A DNA stretch of 64,000 bases from the NCBI RefSeq assembly GCF_016756745.1, contig NZ_JAESIH010000064.1:1-64000 (forward strand), written 5' to 3'. Positions 25,465 to 46,589 of this stretch are shown here, one piece after another. The stretch is from Aminivibrio sp. GTDB taxonomy: Bacteria > Synergistota > Synergistia > Synergistales > Aminobacteriaceae. The number at the start of each line of letters is the position of its first letter. The stretch's first letter is position 1. A model generated the notes under the pieces. It was not told the DNA's origin and made no database searches. It worked only from the letters and a program-made list of their open reading frames with translations. Made by a program: the position numbers and the translations under genes.

Positions 25465-26010
25465 CTAGTCGTAGCGCATGATATCGGTGGGAACGGTGGG
25501 AATTCGTCCCTCCAGTATCTCGCTGAAGACGTAATAGATGGTGTCCGCGTCGGGCGGGCAGCCGGGAACGTAGACATCCACCTTCACGGCCCGGTCCACG
25601 GGGATCGCCTGGGGCAGAAGCGCCGGGAGATCCTGCCGGGGAAGTACGCCGTCGGGGTTCACCGTGCTGGCTGTGTCCACGTAGCCTTCCTTGAGCACCT
25701 GCTCGGCAGGCATAAAATTCCGCATGCAGTTGATTCCGCCGAAGACGGCGCAGTCTCCCCAGGCGATGAGGATCTTGCACCGCTCCCTCAGCTCCTTCGC
25801 GAGATGAAGTTCTTCCTCGTTGCCGAGGGCGCCCTCGATGACCCCCACCTCAACCTCGGGAAAGATCTTGATATCGGTGATGGGCGTGGCGGTGAGCTCC
25901 ACCTTGCCGAGGAGATCCACTATCCGTTCATCGATGTCGAGAAAGGACATATGGCAGCCCGCGCAGGCTTCAAGCCAGACGGACGCTAGTTTCGGCTTCG
26001 CCATGGTCAT
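25465..26010 (-). CDS. hoxY: [NiFe]-hydrogenase small subunit (HoxY/HydS type)
   Basis: 181 residues, the short cytosolic small subunit that carries only the proximal [4Fe-4S] cluster. Ligands: CAGCHMSF near residues 16-19, WGDCAVFGG near 93 and VPGCPPDADTIYY near 150. No signal peptide. The start overlaps the upstream NuoG-like gene by four bases. MTMAKP contains a second possible start two codons on. It relays electrons between the NiFe site and the iron-sulfur chain of the NuoG-like subunit. Confidence 0.95.
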   Translation of the reverse strand: MTMAKPKLASVWLEACAGCHMSFLDIDERIVDLLGKVELTATPITDIKIFPEVEVGVIEGALGNEEELHLAKELRERCKILIAWGDCAVFGGINCMRNFMPAEQVLKEGYVDTASTVNPDGVLPRQDLPALLPQAIPVDRAVKVDVYVPGCPPDADTIYYVFSEILEGRIPTVPTDIMRYD

Positions 26011-27995
26011 CGTACCTCCTTCAGCGAGACGATCCTGGCCGCAGCGGACGGGGACTTCGCCTCGTAGACGTTTTCGCAGGGAGCGGCCGAAGCGGGCCGG
26101 AGTTCAAGTCCGAGCTTGCCGGCCAGCTCATTCATGATAACGGACAAACCCTTCAGGTTGCCCTTGGGAGGCACGATCATGTTCATTCTGCGCCGCTCTC
26201 CCTCCAGGGTGCAGTAGTGCCCGCTTCGCTCGAACCATGCCGGGGCGGGAAGGAGCACGTCGGCCATGTTCACCAGGGGATGGACCATGAAGGGAGTGTG
26301 CACCACCACGAATCGCGCCCTGGTCATGGCCTCCAGCGACCGCTTGTCCTCGTCCACCATGCCGGTGGAGAGCACGTAGAGGAAATCGAGCTCGCCGTTG
26401 CTGAGCCAGTCGCTCTCGCCGATGACCGTGTTGAGGGCCCCCAGGCAGTTTCCGCCCCTGAGCATGGGCACCACGCCGAGGCCGTCGTCGAAGAAGGCCT
26501 TCGAGGCAACCGCCAGGTTCAGGGCCTCCGTGACGAGGGCGGGATGTTCCGCAAGGCCCGAGCCGACGATGAATACGGGCTTTTTCGCTTCCCGGAGGAT
26601 TCTGGCGGCTTCGCTCACCCCGGGGTCCTTCGGTTCATTTCCGCCTTCAACGGCCTCCCTCAAGGAGACCAGCACCTTCTCCATTTCGTCGGGGAGGGCC
26701 GCCCGGATATCCCCGTCGGTGATCCCGTCGAAGGGGTTCTTCCCGGAGGAGAGGTTGACAAGTTTCGCCCGCTCGATAATGGTGGAGACCCTGATATAGC
26801 TCGCCACCACCGGGGCCTCCTCCTGGGGGTTCGCCCCGATGACGACAATGGCGTCGCTCTCGAGGATGTTGTGCGCCCCGGTGAAGGGCCGTATTCCCTG
26901 GTCGGCGAAGGGCTGGAACCCCTTCACGAATCCGCGGAGCAGATTGCCGTAGAATCCGTCCACTTTCTCCATTTTCATGGTGTCCCTGAAGAAAGAGGAG
27001 ACCACGGAGAGCTCTTCGTCGGTGGACAGCTCCGAGAGGAGGGCGCCTGCCCTGTTGGCCTTCGATGCCGGCTCGAGCTTCGATGCGATGAGATCCAGCG
27101 CCTCCTCCCAGGAAGCCTCCCTGAAGGAAGAACCGGTACGGATCATGGGAACAGTGAGGCGGTCCCGTTCGGTAGATTTCGGCAGTCCCCAGCGCCCCTT
27201 GTGGCAGAGCTGACCGCCGTCGGGGCTGTTCGCCGAGAGGCCCTCAACCCGCGCTACGCTTCCCGTGCGGACATAGGCCTTGATCCTGCACCCAAGGGAG
27301 CAGAGCGGACAGATGCTCTCCACCTGGTCGTCGCAGTCGTTCCGCCGTCCCCGGTAGACAAAGTCCCGAAGGGTGATGGTTCCCGTGGGACAGACCTGGG
27401 CGCAGGCGCCGCAGGAAACGCAGGTGTCGCTCTCGCCGAGCATCTTCCCGAGATCGGCGGTGATGTTGGTTCCCCATCCCCGTTTTTCGAGGTCGAGGGT
27501 ATGGGCCCCGACTTTCTCGGCGCAGACCCTGATGCACCTCAGGCAGAGGATGCACCGGTTGTGGTCCATCTGGATGTTCGGGTCGGTGGCATCGTTGTGG
27601 AACGGCTCGTACAGGAAGGGGTATCGCACGTTGTCCATGCCGTGCTCGATGGCGAGCCGCTGGAGTTCGCAGTCCCCCGTCTGGGAGCAGAACATGCAGA
27701 AGTGGTTCCTTCCCGCGAAGAGAAGTTCCAGGATCTGCAGGCGGTAGTGTTTCAGTTTTTCCGTCTTCGTATGAATTTTCATTCCGTTCTCCGCCGGTGT
27801 GGTGCAGGCGGTGAGGAGCTTGGGGTTCCCCTCAACCTCCACGACGCACATGCGGCACGAACCGATGGGCGTCAGTCCCTCCATCCAGCAGAGGGTCGGA
27901 ATGTAGATGTCGTTTCTCCTGGCGACCTGGAGAATGGTATCTCCCTTCGCCGCCATGCATTCGACTCCGTCGATGACGAGCGTGATATCACTCAT
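26007..27995 (-). CDS. NuoG/HoxU-like iron-sulfur subunit with FDH-like domain
   Basis: 662 residues. The N-terminal [2Fe-2S] domain is near 35-70 (CWMEGLTPIGSCRMCVVEV). A NuoG-type His/Cys [4Fe-4S] site is near 100 (HFCMFCSQTGDCELQ). A 2x[4Fe-4S] ferredoxin lies at about 145-205 (CILCLRCIRVC and CVSCGACAQVCPTG). A formate-dehydrogenase-like region from about 225 starts with CPLCSLGCRIKAY. This is longer than HoxU (about 240), which ends after the ferredoxin domain. It is the electron hub between diaphorase and hydrogenase. Mo/W binding by the last domain is not established. Comparable multi-subunit [NiFe] enzymes in Synergistota have been described as electron-bifurcating. Confidence 0.88.
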   Translation of the reverse strand: MSDITLVIDGVECMAAKGDTILQVARRNDIYIPTLCWMEGLTPIGSCRMCVVEVEGNPKLLTACTTPAENGMKIHTKTEKLKHYRLQILELLFAGRNHFCMFCSQTGDCELQRLAIEHGMDNVRYPFLYEPFHNDATDPNIQMDHNRCILCLRCIRVCAEKVGAHTLDLEKRGWGTNITADLGKMLGESDTCVSCGACAQVCPTGTITLRDFVYRGRRNDCDDQVESICPLCSLGCRIKAYVRTGSVARVEGLSANSPDGGQLCHKGRWGLPKSTERDRLTVPMIRTGSSFREASWEEALDLIASKLEPASKANRAGALLSELSTDEELSVVSSFFRDTMKMEKVDGFYGNLLRGFVKGFQPFADQGIRPFTGAHNILESDAIVVIGANPQEEAPVVASYIRVSTIIERAKLVNLSSGKNPFDGITDGDIRAALPDEMEKVLVSLREAVEGGNEPKDPGVSEAARILREAKKPVFIVGSGLAEHPALVTEALNLAVASKAFFDDGLGVVPMLRGGNCLGALNTVIGESDWLSNGELDFLYVLSTGMVDEDKRSLEAMTRARFVVVHTPFMVHPLVNMADVLLPAPAWFERSGHYCTLEGERRRMNMIVPPKGNLKGLSVIMNELAGKLGLELRPASAAPCENVYEAKSPSAAARIVSLKEVR

Positions 27996-31233: not shown

Positions 31234-32256
31234 ATGGCAAAAATCAGCTATGTTCACGTGGAAAGCGCGCTCGGCATGGCCCTTTCCCACGATATGACCC
31301 AGATCGACGTAAAAACCGGATACAAGGGCGCCCGGTTCAAAAAAGGGCATATTCTCCGGCAGGAGGACGTTCGCCTGCTGAAGTCCATGGGGAAGGAGTC
31401 CATCTCCGTTCTTGAGCTGGACGAAGGAGATGTCCACGAGGACGATGCCGCGTCGAGGCTGGCCGAACGTCTCAGCGGCGAGGGGATATCGTCGGAGGCG
31501 CCGGAGGAGGGGAAGGTGGCCCTTTCAGCCCTCTGGAACGGTCTCCTGGTCTACGACGAGGAGAGCATCCACAGGATCAACGAAGACCCTGACTGGATCG
31601 TCGCCACGGCGGCGAACAAAGTTCCCGTGAAAAAGGGCGAGCTGGTGGCAGGTGTACGGATTGTCCCCCTCGTCATGAGGGAAGAACAGGTCCGTCAGGG
31701 AGAGGACGCCGTCCTGCCCCTGACGGTATTCCCCTTCGTCCCCCTGAAGACAGCCCTGGTCACTACAGGGAAGGAACTGGCCGAGGGGAGAATCCGGGAC
31801 GGCTTTGCCCCGAAGCTCCAGAAGAAGCTGGCAGGGTACGGGGCAACTCTTCAGTGGCAGACGGTGGTGGGGGACGAAAGAGAAGAGATCGCCGCCGCAA
31901 TCACGGCCTACATTGAACAGGGAGCAGAGTTGGTGATCGCCACAGGAGGCATGAGCGTGGACCCGGACGACCGGACCGCCGGGGCCATCGCCTCGGTGGC
32001 GGAAGAAGTCCGGTTCAAAGGTGTTCCCACAGTCCCGGGCGCCCATCTCATGCTCGCCCTGAGGGGCGAGGCAAAGATCGTGGGAGCCCCTGCCTGCGTG
32101 GTCCACGACGAGTGGACAAGCCTCGACCCCCTGCTGAACCGCCTCTTCGCGGGCCTCATTCCGACGGCCGCGGAAGTGCGGCGGTGGGGCGTGGGCGGGA
32201 TGTGCAGAAAATGCAGGGAGTGTAACTATCCCGTCTGCGTTTTCGCGGCCCGATGA
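31234..32256 (+). CDS. MoeA-like molybdopterin-binding protein with C-terminal Cys cluster
   Basis: 340 residues. The N-terminus (VESALGMALSHDMTQIDVKTG, then KGARFKKGHIL) matches the start of MoeA-type proteins. The MoCF/MogA-like domain has TTGKELAEGRIRDG near 170 and VIATGGMSVDPDDRT near 228, the pterin-binding loops. The end is an extra cluster, CRKCRECNYPVCVF, with four Cys, which could bind iron-sulfur or zinc. It lacks a complete MoeA C-terminal domain. It may bind molybdopterin or act in cofactor insertion or sensing for Mo enzymes. It overlaps the Fur-family gene by four bases. Confidence 0.8.
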   Translation: MAKISYVHVESALGMALSHDMTQIDVKTGYKGARFKKGHILRQEDVRLLKSMGKESISVLELDEGDVHEDDAASRLAERLSGEGISSEAPEEGKVALSALWNGLLVYDEESIHRINEDPDWIVATAANKVPVKKGELVAGVRIVPLVMREEQVRQGEDAVLPLTVFPFVPLKTALVTTGKELAEGRIRDGFAPKLQKKLAGYGATLQWQTVVGDEREEIAAAITAYIEQGAELVIATGGMSVDPDDRTAGAIASVAEEVRFKGVPTVPGAHLMLALRGEAKIVGAPACVVHDEWTSLDPLLNRLFAGLIPTAAEVRRWGVGGMCRKCRECNYPVCVFAAR

Positions 32257-32681
32257 AAGATCCGGGAGACCTTCTCAGGGAAAGGGGAATACGTCCCACG
32301 GAACTCCGGAAAGCCGTGCTTCGCGTTCTTTTCGAAGCCGGAAGTCCCCTTTCGTGGAAAGATACGTTCACCCGCTTCACGGAGAAGCGGGTGAATAAGG
32401 TGTCGCTGTACAGAACCCTGTCGCTGCTCGAGGAGAAGGGGCTGATCCACAAGATCCTCGGCACCGACGGGGCATGGCACTACTGCGCCCACCTCCCCGA
32501 AGGGAACAGATGCCCGGGAAACCACCCCCACTTTCTCTGCCTGGCCTGCGGCCGGATGATCTGCCTGGACGACCAGCCTCTTCCCACGGTATGGGTTCCC
32601 GAAGGATGCGTCGTGGAGGGGAAGCAGCTCCTCGCCTACGGGCGCTGCCCCTCCTGTTCGGTAACGCAGCCGCATGGGTGA
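32253..32681 (+). CDS. Fur-family metal-responsive repressor
   Basis: 142 residues. Winged-helix N-terminus with LRERGIRPTELRKAVLRVL and the recognition region VNKVSLYRTLSLLEEKGLI near residue 48. The C-terminal metal domain has CPGNHPHFLCLACGRMICL and a final CPSC pair, giving two CxxC zinc motifs as in Fur/Zur/PerR proteins. It is likely a zinc- or iron-responsive DNA-binding repressor. ATGA overlap with the MoeA-like gene suggests co-regulation with molybdopterin functions. Its 3' end overlaps the convergent panE gene by 46 bases. Confidence 0.88.
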   Translation: MKDPGDLLRERGIRPTELRKAVLRVLFEAGSPLSWKDTFTRFTEKRVNKVSLYRTLSLLEEKGLIHKILGTDGAWHYCAHLPEGNRCPGNHPHFLCLACGRMICLDDQPLPTVWVPEGCVVEGKQLLAYGRCPSCSVTQPHG

Positions 32682-33601
32682 TCCGCCCTCATCCGCAGGG
32701 CGTCGTACACGCCCCGGGTGAGGTGAACATCTCCTCCGAGACGCTCTCCCTCCTTGACGACAAACCCCAGTAAGGTTTCGATCTCCGTCCGGCGCCCCTT
32801 TTCACAGTCGAGCTGCATGGATGATTTCGTGTCCGGCGGGAAAGCCACTCCCTTGGCAAGGGAAAGCTCCACTATGTCCGGCGGGAGGGATACTCCCTTG
32901 AGCACCGCAAGGGACTGGATCTCCCTCATCATCCCCTCGAGCATGGGCTGGCTGTCCTGCCCCGCGAGAACTTCGCCGAAGGTTCTTCCGAAGAGGGACG
33001 TCACCCCGGCGAAGGGGGCCATGAAGATGAACTTCGTCCAGACGGCCTCGTTCACGTCCTCCACAAGGGCGGCGTCTATTCCCGCCTTCCTGAGCATCTC
33101 CTCCACGGGCAGGAACTGTTTTCTGGCTCCCGACACGGGGCCGAATAAGAGCTTCCTGCTGCCCCCGGTCTGGCGGACAACCCCGGGCCCCTCGATCCGG
33201 GCGGAGATGTAGACGCAGCCGTTGAGCATCCGGCACGGCGGCAGGGCTTCCGACAGCACTTCAGGGCTGGTCACCCCGTTCAGCAGGGGAAGAACCGCCG
33301 TATCCGGCCCTACCAGGGGAACAGCCGTCCGGGCGGCCGCCCGGAGATCGTACCCCTTGACCGCAAAGACCACGAGGTCGGCCGTCCCTATTTCCGCAGG
33401 ATCGTCGGTGGCCAGAAAGGGACGTGCGAAGAACTCCTCGTCCTGGGCCAGCACCTTCAGCCCCTTGTCCTTGATCGCCCGGAGGTGCTCTCCCCTGGCG
33501 AGAAACATCACCTGGTGCTCTTCACCGCCCTCGAATGCCCGGGCCGCCTTGCCGCCGTAATACCCGCCCACGCCGCCGAGCCCGACAAATACAATCTTCA
33601 T
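32636..33601 (-). CDS. panE: 2-dehydropantoate 2-reductase (ketopantoate reductase)
   Basis: 321 residues. N-terminal NADPH-binding GLGGVGGYYGGKAAR at residue 6, then VFAVKGYDLRAAAR near 93 and LLNGV near 115 of the ApbA/PanE family. The C-terminal helical domain begins about 180; Lys/Asn/Glu/Ser catalytic positions are plausible (AVWTKFIFMAPFAGVTSL near 184). It reduces ketopantoate to pantoate in coenzyme A synthesis, although many ApbA-family members act on other 2-keto acids. It follows msrA by 35 bp, and its last 46 bases overlap the convergent fur gene. Confidence 0.88.
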   Translation of the reverse strand: MKIVFVGLGGVGGYYGGKAARAFEGGEEHQVMFLARGEHLRAIKDKGLKVLAQDEEFFARPFLATDDPAEIGTADLVVFAVKGYDLRAAARTAVPLVGPDTAVLPLLNGVTSPEVLSEALPPCRMLNGCVYISARIEGPGVVRQTGGSRKLLFGPVSGARKQFLPVEEMLRKAGIDAALVEDVNEAVWTKFIFMAPFAGVTSLFGRTFGEVLAGQDSQPMLEGMMREIQSLAVLKGVSLPPDIVELSLAKGVAFPPDTKSSMQLDCEKGRRTEIETLLGFVVKEGERLGGDVHLTRGVYDALRMRADHPCGCVTEQEGQRP

Positions 33602-33636: not shown

Positions 33637-34338
33637 CTATCGCACCCTGGTACGGAGTCTTTTCTTCCCCTCCTCCGAAAGGCCGAGCAGGGGAAGAAAC
33701 TTCTCCAGTGTCTCCTTCGATCCCAGTCCCGCAAGAATTCCGTTGACCTTCGCAGCGGAGGGGGAATCCACGAAACCGTCCCGTTCCGGGTACATATCCC
33801 CGTATTCCCTCATGAGGATAAAATCCCTGCGAAGATAGTATTTCTGGTGGTACCCTTCAGCCATGTAAAAACGGGACACGGGCTCCACAGCCGTGAAGAC
33901 CCTGCCGACGGCGGCCTCGATCCTTGCGGCTGACCGTTCCGCTGTTTTCCGCTGCTCTTCGTCCGCCGTAAAAATGACGGACCGGTACTGGACGGACCAT
34001 GGACGGGCCGCAGGATTGTGGCTCTCCCAGAAGACGTCCAGAAGCTGTTCATAGGAGATTTTTTCCGGGTCGTAATCGACCTGGACTGTCTCCGTGTGAT
34101 CTCCGATGTCATCGTAGGTGGGATCCGCCGTCGTTCCCCCGGCATATCCCACCCGGGTGCGCACCACTCCGTCGAGAAGCCCGAACCGGGCATCAGGCCC
34201 CCAGAATCACCCGAGGGCGAAGGCGGCTGTCCGGAGATCCGCGGGAATCTGCCGGTCCAGGGGAGGGATCTCCCCTGCCCAGGCCCGTCCGGCAAAAAAC
34301 ACCGTTGCAGCGGCAAGTACGACTTCAATCATTTTCAT
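33637..34338 (-). CDS. msrA: Secreted peptide methionine-S-sulfoxide reductase, selenoprotein (Sec44)
   Basis: 233 residues if the in-frame TGA at 34207-34209 is read as selenocysteine. The start is ATG 34338 (GGAGGTGG site). A signal peptide (MIEVVLAAATVFFA, cleavage after RAWA) precedes the catalytic motif AFALG-U-FWGPDARF. The Sec sits exactly where MsrA has its catalytic Cys (GCFWG). Downstream features are normal MsrA: VRTRVGYAGGTT, HTETVQVDYDP, WESHNP, EGYHQKYYL. The protein has no Cys at all, so Sec44 would be its only redox residue. A standard gene caller would start at the GTG at 34167, after the catalytic residue. It probably repairs oxidised Met in the periplasm. Confidence 0.88.
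34176..34209 (-). promoter_or_regulatory. Putative Sec codon plus bacterial SECIS hairpin in msrA
   Basis: UGA followed by a hairpin GAUGCCCG-GUU-CGGGCUUC. The apical loop begins 20 bases after the UGA, inside the 16-37 base range of bacterial SECIS elements, and the loop starts with G. Confidence 0.65.
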
Positions 34339-34411
34339 TCTCTCCACCTCCCGAAAAATTTCCTTGTCATTATTATTTTACACTACAGTCATCTTTCTTT
34401 CCCGGACGGAT

Positions 34412-34575
34412 CCTAAATCCGCAGGTTTTTCAGGCAGAGGGAGTGTCGCCGGGCACAGCGCCCGGGCCGAGAAACCGACACGGATGTCGGTTTCAGGTGC
34501 AGTTGTCAAGGACGACAATCTGCACCGGCGGCCCAAGCGAGCACCGGTGACACTCCCGCTGCCTGCGGATTTAGG
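34412..34575 (+). mobile_element. MITE-like hairpin repeat, copy E, with 5-bp target duplication
   Basis: 164 bp with terminal inverted repeats CCTAAATCCGCAGG...CCTGCGGATTTAGG. Internal stems: GCCGGGC/GCCCGGGC, GAAACCGACA/TGTCGGTTTC (perfect) and GGTGCAG..TTGTC/GACAA..CTGCACC. It is flanked by the direct repeat CGGAT (34407-34411 and 34576-34580), evidence of transposition. No coding capacity. It lies between msrA and the EFR1 gene and is about 98% identical to copy F. Confidence 0.9.
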
Positions 34576-34649
34576 CGGATTATGTCCGACGGGCTTCCCT
34601 GCTGTACAATAAAATGAAAGGCCCAACCGAAGGAGGCGCTTCATCGGTC

Positions 34650-35432
34650 ATGAAGGAATCGTCAGTGGACTTCTACTTTTTCAGCGGAACGGGAAACACC
34701 CTGCTTGCGGCCCGGGCCGTGGCCGGAAGGCTCAGGGAAGGAGGGAAAAGGGTCCGGCTCCGCCGTATGGAAAAGGGGTTCGTTCCCTTCCAGGATGACG
34801 GCACCGCCCTCGGAATCGCCGTCACCGTGGCCATGTTTTCCACGTACCCCTTCGCTTGGGAATTCCTCGAGAAGCTCCCCGACGGCGGGGGCCGGGGCGC
34901 GTTCCTTGTCTCGACCATGGGACAAACGTCCGGCGGACTCCGCCCCGCAATGAAAAAACTCTTTACCTCGAAACACTACACCCCCCTGGGGGCACGGGAA
35001 TTCGTCATGCCGTCAAACTACAACAACACGACCATCCCCGTTGCCGCAAACAGGGAAAAAATCGAAACGATGGAGAGGGACGCCGCCCTGTTTGCGGAAT
35101 CTCTCCTGGAGGGAAGAGCCGTCTGGGAGGGGGGCAATATCCTCTCTCCCCTGTTCTACCGACTTTCCCGCAGGCAGTGGCCATGGAGGCTCATGAGGAA
35201 AAAGTATCCCCTCACCGTGGACAGGGGAAAGTGCATCAAGTGCGGGAAGTGCGCCAGGCTCTGCCCGGCAAAAAACATCCGCATGGCGGAGTACCCGGAA
35301 TTCCTGGACCACTGCGTCTCCTGCCAGCGGTGCGTGGCTTTCTGTCCCCCGATGGCCATAGGCGTGCAGGGCAAAAACTACCGGCAGTACCGTTCGGTGG
35401 AGTACGGCGATCTTGTCTCGGAGAATCTTTGA
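34650..35432 (+). CDS. EFR1-type ferredoxin (flavodoxin-like plus 2x[4Fe-4S])
   Basis: 260 residues from ATG 34650 (GAAGGAGG about 13 bases upstream); an earlier ATG at 34614 would be nearly leaderless relative to the TACAAT -10 box. The N-terminal flavodoxin-like domain starts YFFSGTGNTLLAARAVA and binds FMN. The C-terminal dicluster ferredoxin has CIKCGKCARLCPAKN near residue 195 and CVSCQRCVAFCPP near 223. EFR1 proteins are cytosolic low-potential electron carriers. The gene is 15 bp upstream of a Cys-Sec protein and probably supplies it with electrons. Confidence 0.88.
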   Translation: MKESSVDFYFFSGTGNTLLAARAVAGRLREGGKRVRLRRMEKGFVPFQDDGTALGIAVTVAMFSTYPFAWEFLEKLPDGGGRGAFLVSTMGQTSGGLRPAMKKLFTSKHYTPLGAREFVMPSNYNNTTIPVAANREKIETMERDAALFAESLLEGRAVWEGGNILSPLFYRLSRRQWPWRLMRKKYPLTVDRGKCIKCGKCARLCPAKNIRMAEYPEFLDHCVSCQRCVAFCPPMAIGVQGKNYRQYRSVEYGDLVSENL

Positions 35433-43453: not shown

Positions 43454-46180
43454 CTACTCCTTTTTCAGCGCCGCCAGGACCTTCTCGGGGTAGGCGGGAA
43501 GCTTCGTGATCCTCACCCCGCAGGCATTATAGATGCCGTTGATGATGGAGGCATGGGGACTCGTGAGGGGAAGCTCGCCGATGCCGGCCGCGCCGTGGGG
43601 GCCGTCGGCCCTGGGCTCCTCGAAGTAGATGACCTCGATGTCGTCGGGGATGTCCTTGATGTAGGGGAACCCGGCACCGGGCATGGTGGAATGCTTCTCG
43701 ATGTCCTCGAATTCCTCGGAGAGGGCGAGGCCGATGCCCTGGGCAATGCCGCCGTAGTTCTGGCCGTCCACCACGAGACGGTTGTTGATCTTCCCGCAGT
43801 CGCACATGAGAGTCATGCGGTCCACGGCTGTCTTGCCCGTCTCCGTGTCCACGGTCACCTCGGCCATGAACACGCCGTACATGTAGATCACGAAGGGTTT
43901 GCCCTGACTGTTTTCGTCGCACACCGTCCCATCCACGGCGGACCACTTTCCGGCGAATGACGTGGGTTTTCCGGCGGCCTTCAGCTCATCATAGGTCATA
44001 TAGCCGCCGCCGGGTTTCGCGGTCTCCTTGAGCAGGGTCTCGCAGGCCACCCTGATGGCGTTGCCCGTCATGACCTGGGACCGGGAACCGCCCGCAGGGC
44101 CGGAATTGGGGCATTTCGCCGTGTTGGGCCACGTGAAGCGGAGCTTGTCGGGGGCGATGCCCAGGGGCCGCAACGCCTCGTGGGCCGTGCCGATGGCGCC
44201 GATGTCGGCTCCCTGGCCGTGGTCTTCCCAGGCGGAGCAGACGGTGATGGTCCCGTCGGGGTTCATGTCCACCCGGGCTTCGGAACCGTCGGGGCCGTCG
44301 AGCCCGCAGCCGTACACGCCCACCGAGAGGCCGACGCCTTTCTTGTAGCGGGCCGTGGAGCCTTCGGCGGCTCTCTTCTTCGCGAGTTCGTACTTCGGCC
44401 GGAGCGCCTCGAGCATCTTCGGCAGGGAATAGGATTCGGGGGCCTGTCCCGTGGGGGTGGTGCTTCCCGGCCGGTAGGCGTTCTTCAGGCGGATCTCCAG
44501 CGGATCCATGCCGAGCTTCTCAGCCAGCTCGTCCATAAGGACTTCGGAGGAGAAAAGGGACTGGGGGGAACCGTAGGCCCGGAAGGCCGATCCCCAGACA
44601 TGGTTGGTACACACCGTCCGGCCTTCGCCCCTGATGTTGGGAATGTCGTATCCCGCACCCATGAACTGGGTGCCCCGCAGGGTCAGCAGATCGCCGAACT
44701 CGGAATAGGGACCGTGGTCCACGGAATAGTCGGTCTCCATGGCGAGGAGTTTTCCTTCCCTGTCGGCGGCGAACTTCATGTTGACGAAGAAGGGGGAGCG
44801 CTTTCCCGTGTACTGCTGCTGCTGCTTCCAGGTGTAGTTCAGAGCGACGGGGTGACCCGTGGCCAGTGCGGCGGCGCCCACGAGGGCTTCCATGGTGGGG
44901 CTGAACTTGTAGCCGAAGGTGCCTCCCGCCGGATTGGTCACGAGGACCAGCTTCTCAGGCTCAACGCCGAGGCCTGGGGCGATCATGGCCAGGTGGAGAT
45001 GGACGCCGATGGACTTGGAATGGATCACCAGGCGCCCCTCGTTGTCCAGGTAGGCGAATCCCACGTCAGGCTCGATGGGCATGTGGGGCTGCCTTCCCAC
45101 GTAGAAGTCGTCCTCCACGGTGACCACGTCGGAGCGGGCGAAGATGGGGGCCGTTTCTTCCCCTTTCTTTATCTTCTGGGTGAAATACACGTTTGGCGTG
45201 CCGGGATGGATTTCGATGGCGTCTTCCGCCATGGCGGCGGGAGCGCTCATGTAGGCCGGAAGGACCTCCAGATCGAGTTTCACCTTCTCGGCAGCGGCGG
45301 CGGCGTTCTTGTAGTTGTCGGCGCAGACGATGGCTACGGCGTCGCCGTACTGGAAAATCTTCTCGTCGCATAGGATGGGACGGTCCCATCCGTCGCCCTT
45401 GTTCGTGGGGAAGGTGATGAGGCCGGTAATCCTGTTTTTCCCCCTGATGTCCTTGTGGGTGACGATCTTGTAGACGCCGGGCATCTTCTCCGCCTCGGAT
45501 GTGTCGATACCCTTTATGTTGGCGTGGGAAACCTTCGCCTGGACGAGGGCCGCGTGGAGGGTTTTCTTCGGCATCTTGAGGATCAGGTCCGCGCCGTAGT
45601 CCAGGGTCCCGGTAACCTTGGCGACGGCGGTGGGACGGGGGTACTTGCTGCCCCAGATCCGCCCGTCCTCCGGAAGGACGAAATCGAGCTCCTTCTCGTC
45701 CATCTCTCCCCGGAGCACCTTAGCGGCATCCATGACGGCGTCGACGATGGGCTTGTACCCGGTGCACCGGCAGGCGTTCCTGTTGGCCTGGAACCAGTCC
45801 CGGACTTCTTCCCGGTTCGGGTTGGGGTTTGTGTCGAGAAGGGCCTTGGCGGAGACGATGAATCCCGGAGTGCAGAAGCCGCACTGGGCGGCGCCGTGCC
45901 TGATCCAGGCCTTCTGGATGGGGTGGAGCTTCCCGGGGGCGCCGATGCCCTCGATGGTGGTGATGTCGGCTCTTTCAGGAAGCCTGGACATTTTGTACAC
46001 GCAGGAACGGGTATACTTGCCGTCGATGATCACGCCGCAGGAGCCGCAATGCCCCTGGCCGCATCCGATCTTGGTCCCGGTCAGCCCGAGCTGTTCCCTG
46101 AGCACTGAGGCAAGGGTGCTGTCATCCTCCACTATGATGTTCCGTTCAACACCGTTGACAAAAAAGACTTTCTGAATCAT
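43454..46180 (-). CDS. mop: Molybdopterin-dependent aldehyde oxidoreductase (Mop type)
   Basis: 908 residues, the length of Desulfovibrio Mop. The [2Fe-2S] ferredoxin domain has KIGCGQGHCGSCGV near residue 38; the helical [2Fe-2S] domain has QCGFCTPGFI near 98 and NACRCTGYKP near 137. From about 180 comes the xanthine-oxidase-family Moco domain (ATGHPVALNYTW near 425, GSAFRAYGSPQ near 530, catalytic Glu region GIGELPLTSPHASIINGIYNACG near 870). There is no FAD domain, so it is a one-chain aldehyde oxidoreductase. It oxidises aldehydes to acids in the cytosol. It is downstream of a candidate Moco riboswitch and leads the maturation cluster. Confidence 0.95.
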   Translation of the reverse strand: MIQKVFFVNGVERNIIVEDDSTLASVLREQLGLTGTKIGCGQGHCGSCGVIIDGKYTRSCVYKMSRLPERADITTIEGIGAPGKLHPIQKAWIRHGAAQCGFCTPGFIVSAKALLDTNPNPNREEVRDWFQANRNACRCTGYKPIVDAVMDAAKVLRGEMDEKELDFVLPEDGRIWGSKYPRPTAVAKVTGTLDYGADLILKMPKKTLHAALVQAKVSHANIKGIDTSEAEKMPGVYKIVTHKDIRGKNRITGLITFPTNKGDGWDRPILCDEKIFQYGDAVAIVCADNYKNAAAAAEKVKLDLEVLPAYMSAPAAMAEDAIEIHPGTPNVYFTQKIKKGEETAPIFARSDVVTVEDDFYVGRQPHMPIEPDVGFAYLDNEGRLVIHSKSIGVHLHLAMIAPGLGVEPEKLVLVTNPAGGTFGYKFSPTMEALVGAAALATGHPVALNYTWKQQQQYTGKRSPFFVNMKFAADREGKLLAMETDYSVDHGPYSEFGDLLTLRGTQFMGAGYDIPNIRGEGRTVCTNHVWGSAFRAYGSPQSLFSSEVLMDELAEKLGMDPLEIRLKNAYRPGSTTPTGQAPESYSLPKMLEALRPKYELAKKRAAEGSTARYKKGVGLSVGVYGCGLDGPDGSEARVDMNPDGTITVCSAWEDHGQGADIGAIGTAHEALRPLGIAPDKLRFTWPNTAKCPNSGPAGGSRSQVMTGNAIRVACETLLKETAKPGGGYMTYDELKAAGKPTSFAGKWSAVDGTVCDENSQGKPFVIYMYGVFMAEVTVDTETGKTAVDRMTLMCDCGKINNRLVVDGQNYGGIAQGIGLALSEEFEDIEKHSTMPGAGFPYIKDIPDDIEVIYFEEPRADGPHGAAGIGELPLTSPHASIINGIYNACGVRITKLPAYPEKVLAALKKE

Positions 46181-46391: not shown

Positions 46392-46506
46392 GCCGTTTGC
46401 AAGAAAGCGTCCTCCTTGCCAAAGGGGAGGCGCGCCTGTTTCCGGGCGCACCCTAACGGTCGCTGTCCGTGGGGTTTATCCTTTAGGGCAGGCGACTCGG
46501 AGGAAA
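46392..46506 (-). ncRNA. Candidate Moco/Tuco riboswitch aptamer
   Basis: A structured, GC-rich segment on the minus strand contains CTCCGAGTCGCC, then GGAAACAGGCGCGCCTCC and the hairpin CCTCCCCTTTGGCAAGGAGG. As recalled, these words resemble parts of the Moco RNA motif (GGAAAC, GCCTCCC, TTTGGCA, GGGAGG). It lies directly before an intrinsic terminator and upstream of a molybdopterin aldehyde oxidoreductase, the right kind of target. The match was made by eye, without a covariance model. Confidence 0.5.
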
Positions 46507-46589
46507 AGATCGATATTCTCAGAAAGAAATTTCAAAAAAACACTAACTAGTCTGACCCATTTTATACCAGGAAGAGTCTCCGGACAAGC

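Follow-up and report, generated by a model that had tools for sequence, protein, structure and literature searches.

A probable exported selenoprotein methionine sulfoxide reductase A in Aminivibrio, with a candidate selenoprotein as its electron donor

Introduction

Can a methionine sulfoxide reductase that depends on selenocysteine (Sec) be made for export, and if so, what might keep it reduced on the far side of the membrane? The question is raised by an msrA frame with one in-frame TGA on a 64-kb stretch of DNA from Aminivibrio sp. (Synergistota; contig NZ_JAESIH010000064.1, positions 1 to 64,000), the whole of which is called the window below. From the letters alone, a first-pass annotation had taken the gene for that of a secreted selenoprotein MsrA. 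We put the probability that it encodes an exported selenoprotein MsrA at about 0.85, a figure that does not include the identity of the electron donor. Bacterial Sec-MsrA is known already, having been listed in 2006 (PMC1794560), with the enzyme of C. (Alkaliphilus) oremlandii (CoMsrA) characterised later (PMC4479559). What sets the window protein apart from the known examples is its conserved, predicted export signal.

The msrA gene and its product

The elements of the gene are as follows.

33637..34338, minus strand: selenoprotein msrA, 233 codons plus a TAG stop, with one in-frame TGA read as Sec
34344..34352, minus strand: strong Shine-Dalgarno (SD) sequence, GGGAGGTGG, ahead of the msrA ATG
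34276..34338, minus strand: predicted signal peptide, residues 1-21, MKMIEVVLAAATVFFAGRAWA^GEIPP, likely cut AWA^GEIPP (by inspection; hydrophobic core)
34207..34209, minus strand: Sec codon TGA, residue 44, at the catalytic Cys position (G-U-FWGP)
34179..34191, minus strand: apical stem-loop of a bacterial SECIS, GCCC-GGUUC-GGGC, with conserved G, G, U in the loop (34187-34185)
33640..33825, minus strand: C-terminal helical domain, from the whole-length match to C. oremlandii MsrA and an AlphaFold2 model (boundary approximate)

Read on the minus strand, the ATG (34338-34336; anti-SD duplex -14.8 kcal/mol, 43 codons before Sec) opens a run of 43 codons up to the TGA (34209-34207), which stands in the context ALG-TGA-FWGPDARFG and is followed by 189 codons before the TAG at 33639-33637. 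The ribosome site, start and signal peptide that the first-pass annotation had placed upstream in the same frame are all present, and so is the complete lack of Cys that it had remarked on (0 in the 233-aa read-through protein). Compared with relatives in the genus and family, msrA gave pN/pS values of 0.11-0.54 for the stretch from signal to Sec and 0.23-0.38 behind Sec; to judge from such comparisons, purifying selection is acting both before and behind the TGA. A scan of the 64-kb window revealed no second plausible Sec codon.

The read-through protein scored well above the cut-offs of Pfam PMSR (PF01625; 144.6 bits, cut-off 23.7) and TIGR00401 msrA (130.1 bits, cut-off 108.1), and its active site, G-U-FWGP, is of the GCFWG type; a match to NCBIfam NF041383 (VPGUxxT thioredoxin-like) was weak, at 41.5 bits against a cut-off of 275. 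Residues 35-227 align with residues 7-200 of C. oremlandii MsrA (a mature-length match; 4lwj/4u66/7c13), and the Sec falls exactly on catalytic residue 16 of that Sec-MsrA, so the Cys/Sec column bears out the earlier placing of the TGA at the catalytic Cys position. An AlphaFold2 model (pLDDT 93.4, with helices at 173-229) found only MsrA structures among its best matches, of which the best was 4lwj (TMt 0.89; about 44% identity in the structural alignment). The C-terminal helical domain of C. oremlandii MsrA is absent from ordinary MsrA (PMC4479559). The window gene is, as predicted from these features, an MsrA of the C. oremlandii type, with one Sec, no resolving Cys and the C-terminal helical domain, and it shares the catalytic Sec, the absence of Cys and that domain with CoMsrA itself (4lwj, 4u66; PMC4479559).

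The two differ at the N-terminus. In CoMsrA, which takes its electrons from glutaredoxin, Sec is already residue 16, too early for a signal peptide to precede it (PMC4479559), whereas in the window protein 43 residues come first, of which 21 are predicted signal peptide. Sec also replaces the catalytic Cys in the MsrA of Syntrophobacter fumaroxidans (PMC1794560) and in marine MsrA selenoproteins (PMC2398784), as in the window, but the papers describing these make no mention of MsrA signal peptides, a periplasmic location or dual starts.

Predicted selenocysteine insertion

How well equipped is the organism to read UGA as Sec? Its genome (2.94 Mb in 100 contigs; reported completeness 100%) has selA (TIGR00474, 553 bits) followed directly by selB (TIGR00475, 352 bits) on contig 25, a tRNA-Sec with a TCA (UCA) anticodon on contig 44 (74.5 bits; Rfam cut-off 47) and, on contig 82, a selD that itself contains one in-frame TGA. 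The first-pass annotation had made its selenoprotein hang on selB and selC; since selA, selB, tRNA-Sec and selD are all present, this test does not refute it. The Synergistetes have been described as a selenoprotein-rich phylum (PMC5029168).

Synergistaceae MAGs are the closest relatives. Among 105 related loci (80 from a search of genome contigs, the others being the window itself and loci that a profile search picked out of Synergistota genomes; among them are a few loci present in duplicate), 98 have TGA at the Sec codon and seven a Cys codon, and those with the conserved TGA span Synergistota, Bacillota, Actinomycetota, Thermodesulfobacteriota, Myxococcota and Spirochaetota. A FastTree phylogeny has Sec as the prevalent state and requires two changes to account for Cys. 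The phylum search brought together 26 genomes with an MsrA match carrying one in-frame TGA, the window's included, three of the others being from the same genus.

The hairpin with a 3-nt loop that had been noticed 20 nt after the TGA (loop GTT, 34186-34184; stem GCCCG/CGGGC, 34191-34179) is present, the element GCCC-GGUUC-GGGC lying at nt 19-31 counted from the U of UGA. Taken from the window sequence alone, its apical 18 nt were folded as well by 10% of codon-usage-matched synonymous shuffles, and single-sequence folding was for that reason rejected as proof of a SECIS; longer folds around the hairpin give a competing pairing. Comparison of 91 distinct Sec genes was more telling: codons 6-9 after the TGA (GCC CGG TTC GGG) are almost invariant at synonymous sites, with a codon entropy of 0-0.09 bits (median 1.70 over 63 conserved codons, the next lowest being 0.56). 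The third positions adjoining the stem-loop (14, 17, 32 and 35) vary freely, and in the Cys homologues the constraint is relaxed at the loop G and at the Gly codon. This synonymous freeze is not an artefact of the search, because nearly the same pattern is seen in loci L126-L150, which were collected with a protein profile, independently of any DNA pattern. In addition, the first stem pair (34191/34179) changes from G-C to U-A in eight sequences and to U-G in one (Fisher p = 2e-7, uncorrected for relatedness). Because codons 6-9 are frozen at synonymous sites and one stem pair is compensatory, the hairpin behind the msrA UGA is, on comparative grounds, a genuine bacterial SECIS. Compared with the E. 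coli element, which runs from 15 to 31 and in which U17, G23 and U24 are critical (PMC8659212), the loop GGU of the window sits one position off, and U17 has its counterpart in U18, a base that a third of the relatives replace with C. With machinery and element both evident in the sequence, we infer that Sec is almost certainly inserted at this UGA.

A pseudogene in which a Cys codon had mutated to TGA, or a Cys codon misread as TGA through a sequencing or assembly error, would likewise show up as one TGA interrupting a frame that is open elsewhere; but other assembled genomes of the genus share this TGA, as do most homologues across phyla, the frame stays open and under purifying selection on either side of it, and the Sec machinery of the genome is complete, so the chance of either is practically nil. 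If instead the UGA terminates translation, the product would be either a short secreted peptide or an MsrA-like protein begun at an internal GTG (34167), and the ORF list does include a 176-aa ORF from that GTG, of the kind chosen by gene callers that stop at UGA (msrA-like Sec genes can be missed or shortened in this way). A protein begun there would start too late to include the catalytic residue or the conserved FWGPDARFG core, however, and purifying selection in the same frame before the TGA, as well as strong selection on the stem-loop, speaks further against termination, to which we accord a very slight chance. Sequencing error, pseudogene and termination alike are rejected by the conserved TGA, frame and stem-loop.

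Genes around msrA

The neighbourhood of msrA in the window, and a molybdoenzyme locus further along it, include the following.

32253-32681, plus strand: Fur-family regulator; runs towards the PanE/ApbA-type gene and overlaps it
32636..33601, minus strand: ketopantoate reductase (PanE/ApbA) type gene, 35 nt downstream of msrA, a conserved neighbour in the genus
34426-34570, plus strand: TwoAYGGAY RNA motif (RF01731; 46.9 bits), between msrA and the 4Fe-4S gene, in front of the latter
34614-35432, plus strand: 4Fe-4S protein gene, divergent from msrA
43454-46180, minus strand: xanthine dehydrogenase-type molybdoenzyme gene, behind the molybdenum cofactor riboswitch
46396-46514, minus strand: molybdenum cofactor riboswitch (RF01055; 67.7 bits), upstream of the xanthine dehydrogenase-type gene

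An operon-based clue to function was sought among these and set aside: the PanE/ApbA-type, divergent 4Fe-4S and convergent Fur-family neighbours are conserved, and none is obviously linked to msrA. The PanE/ApbA-type gene is probably not part of MsrA function, and the Fur-family protein is possibly a peroxide or metal regulator. In a molybdopterin/NADH-type oxidoreductase gene in the neighbourhood (26007-27995), no Sec codon was found.

Probable export of the protein

Signal peptides were judged by inspection and by a hydrophobicity rule. That of the window has an n-, h- and c-region and a putative signal peptidase I site; the n-region contains one basic residue (Lys), and an acidic residue, E5, lies at the start of the hydrophobic core. 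Signals of the same type occur in L126, L127, L128 and L133-L136, and AxA-type cleavage sites recur among them while the signal sequence drifts. In the FastTree tree, a supported clade (98) of eight Synergistaceae rows consists of signal-bearing genes only. Between the signal and the Sec of the window msrA there is no alternative start with a usable ribosome site. Cys is absent from 54 of 59 signal-bearing Sec-MsrAs, compared with 13 of 32 that lack a signal (uncorrected for relatedness); such avoidance of Cys fits an oxidising compartment, although it is confounded by relatedness. Secretion had been part of the first-pass annotation, and in the light of the conserved type of signal, the start with its strong SD and the avoidance of Cys in signal-bearing relatives, this sequence-based and comparative evidence makes export of the window MsrA likely.

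The same annotation expected Sec to be a rarity in MsrAs that are exported. As far as sequence data go it is common, a signal-peptide-like N-terminus being present in 54 of the 98 relatives examined with the hydrophobicity rule, although in the open literature searched we found no account of exported bacterial Sec-MsrA, of a selenium-based extracytoplasmic relay or of dual starts. Nor did the open literature yield reports of exported or periplasmic bacterial selenoproteins, most subscription journals being outside the scope of the search. The well-known exported selenoproteins of bacteria, formate dehydrogenase and NiFeSe hydrogenase, are exported folded, via the Tat route.

Candidate electron donor and proposed relay

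How might such an enzyme work, and from where would it draw its electrons? We envisage that SelB and Sec-tRNA(UCA) would bind the stem-loop behind the UGA and insert Sec, that the signal peptide would route MsrA through SecYEG, and that signal peptidase would cut after AWA to leave a soluble protein of about 212 residues. Outside the cytoplasm, Sec44 would attack methionine-S-sulfoxide in envelope proteins, yielding methionine and a selenenic acid (chemistry that is established for the MsrA family), and, because MsrA has no resolving Cys, an external thiol or selenol would be needed to reduce it again. The likeliest donor would be encoded on another contig, by the first gene of a pair.

Contig 80, L158:2092-2463, minus strand: exported thioredoxin-like selenoprotein (PGUPAC), with signal peptide and Sec
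Contig 80, L158:1375-2079, minus strand: DsbD_TM/CcdA-like gene, directly after the UPAC selenoprotein gene

The UPAC protein begins MTINRLFLIFAALAVVLLLPYTGYA^AETARPKLVDLMSPGUPACAEM... and matches Pfam Thioredoxin (39 bits) and Thioredoxin_2 (45 bits). The UPAC-CcdA pair is kept in the genus and in near genera, mostly with Sec and in two cases (L169, L174) with Cys, and the hairpin behind the UPAC UGA covaries, with a compensatory change from TCCAAAGTTTTGGA to GCCAAAGTTTTGGC. The CcdA-like protein would carry electrons across the membrane from cytosolic thioredoxin, and the R isomer would be repaired by the only MsrB of the genome (contig 61, L156, minus strand, ending at about 1492), which is apparently exported too: its N-terminus, MTAVLLILAGVSLLVPVRACPA, is signal-like, so that the only MsrA and the only MsrB both carry N-termini of this kind. 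Two further genes of this genome, L160 (C39) and L161 (C71), are of the Redoxin family and have one in-frame TGA each, L161 encoding a Bcp-like protein with an SGUTS motif.

In the pneumococcus, an extracellular pathway runs from CcdA through Etrx to MsrAB2, with etrx2 and ccdA2 forming a two-gene operon (PMC3914529). The likeness lies in a membrane CcdA, an exported thioredoxin-like protein and an exported Msr, all predicted here from gene content; the pneumococcal proteins use redox Cys and have MsrA and MsrB fused, whereas in the window genome MsrA and the thioredoxin contain Sec, and msrA and msrB are separate. The periplasmic MsrAB of Haemophilus influenzae likewise provides exported MsrA activity that repairs envelope proteins, but again MsrA is fused to MsrB, and there is no mention of selenium (PMC9404787). 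A selenoprotein reductant for a selenoprotein MsrA has a parallel in C. oremlandii, in which, according to a secondary account (Kim et al. 2011, cited in PMC9312934), a selenoprotein glutaredoxin and selenoprotein MsrA use Sec in tandem; as described there, that glutaredoxin is not exported, whereas the donor proposed here is an exported thioredoxin-like protein.

Might the window enzyme instead stay in or on the cytoplasmic side, with its N-terminus an uncleaved anchor or unused, and take its electrons from glutaredoxin as in C. oremlandii? The characterised homologue, whose Sec at residue 16 comes too early for a signal (PMC4479559), would suggest so, as would the weak n-region with its one Lys, E5 near the hydrophobic core, and the presence in the genome of a glutaredoxin gene, whose product has no evident signal. 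Such an arrangement is nevertheless improbable, given the lack of a start with a usable ribosome site between signal and Sec, the recurrence of AxA-type cleavage sites in relatives with diverged signals, the way in which absence of Cys tracks the signal and the signal-like N-terminus of the only MsrB. If MsrA is exported, as we believe, the donor step alone could still be filled differently, by a low-molecular thiol, by another exported thioredoxin, or by dimerisation and resolution, the C. oremlandii enzyme being able to regenerate via an intermolecular dimer resolved by glutaredoxin (PMC4479559). Some such donor is a serious possibility, if somewhat short of an even chance: msrA is not adjacent to the trx-ccdA pair, and co-occurrence is incomplete, Sec-Trx being present in 12 of 26 Sec-MsrA genomes and in 17 of 162 others (uncorrected for relatedness). 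Against it, a Pfam Thioredoxin search of the genome found two proteins only, one without a signal and the other the exported UPAC protein, and a route from CcdA through an exported thioredoxin to Msr has been shown in the pneumococcus (PMC3914529). From gene content, the UPAC selenoprotein has roughly even odds of being the electron donor of MsrA.

Two putative starts in front of one UGA in other lineages

Outside the genus of the window, 46 signal-bearing msrA genes offer an in-frame start somewhere after the signal and before Sec; in 24 of these genes that start has a strong SD (duplex <= -8 kcal/mol). The corresponding proportion among 624 in-frame start codons deeper in genes was 3.2%, although the fair expectation is somewhat above this figure, the best of several candidate starts having been taken per gene. 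In L007, L013, L015, L028, L061, L064, L068, L141, L143 and others, the second strong SD and start lie 24-34 codons before Sec, behind a signal or lipobox. From their sequences, one message of such a gene may give rise to both an exported and a cytosolic MsrA. The window msrA has no dual start.

Implications

We would suggest, tentatively and as something rather less than an even bet, that anaerobes run an extracytoplasmic selenium repair relay (CcdA, a UxxC selenothioredoxin and Sec-MsrA), accompanied in many lineages by dual-start msrA. If this is true, a selenol would cross the Sec channel unfolded into a more oxidising compartment, and the exported MsrA would be kept working there by what appears to be a second exported selenoprotein. 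Two questions would thereby become testable: whether Sec survives Sec-dependent export, and why strict anaerobes should spend selenium on the repair of their envelope.
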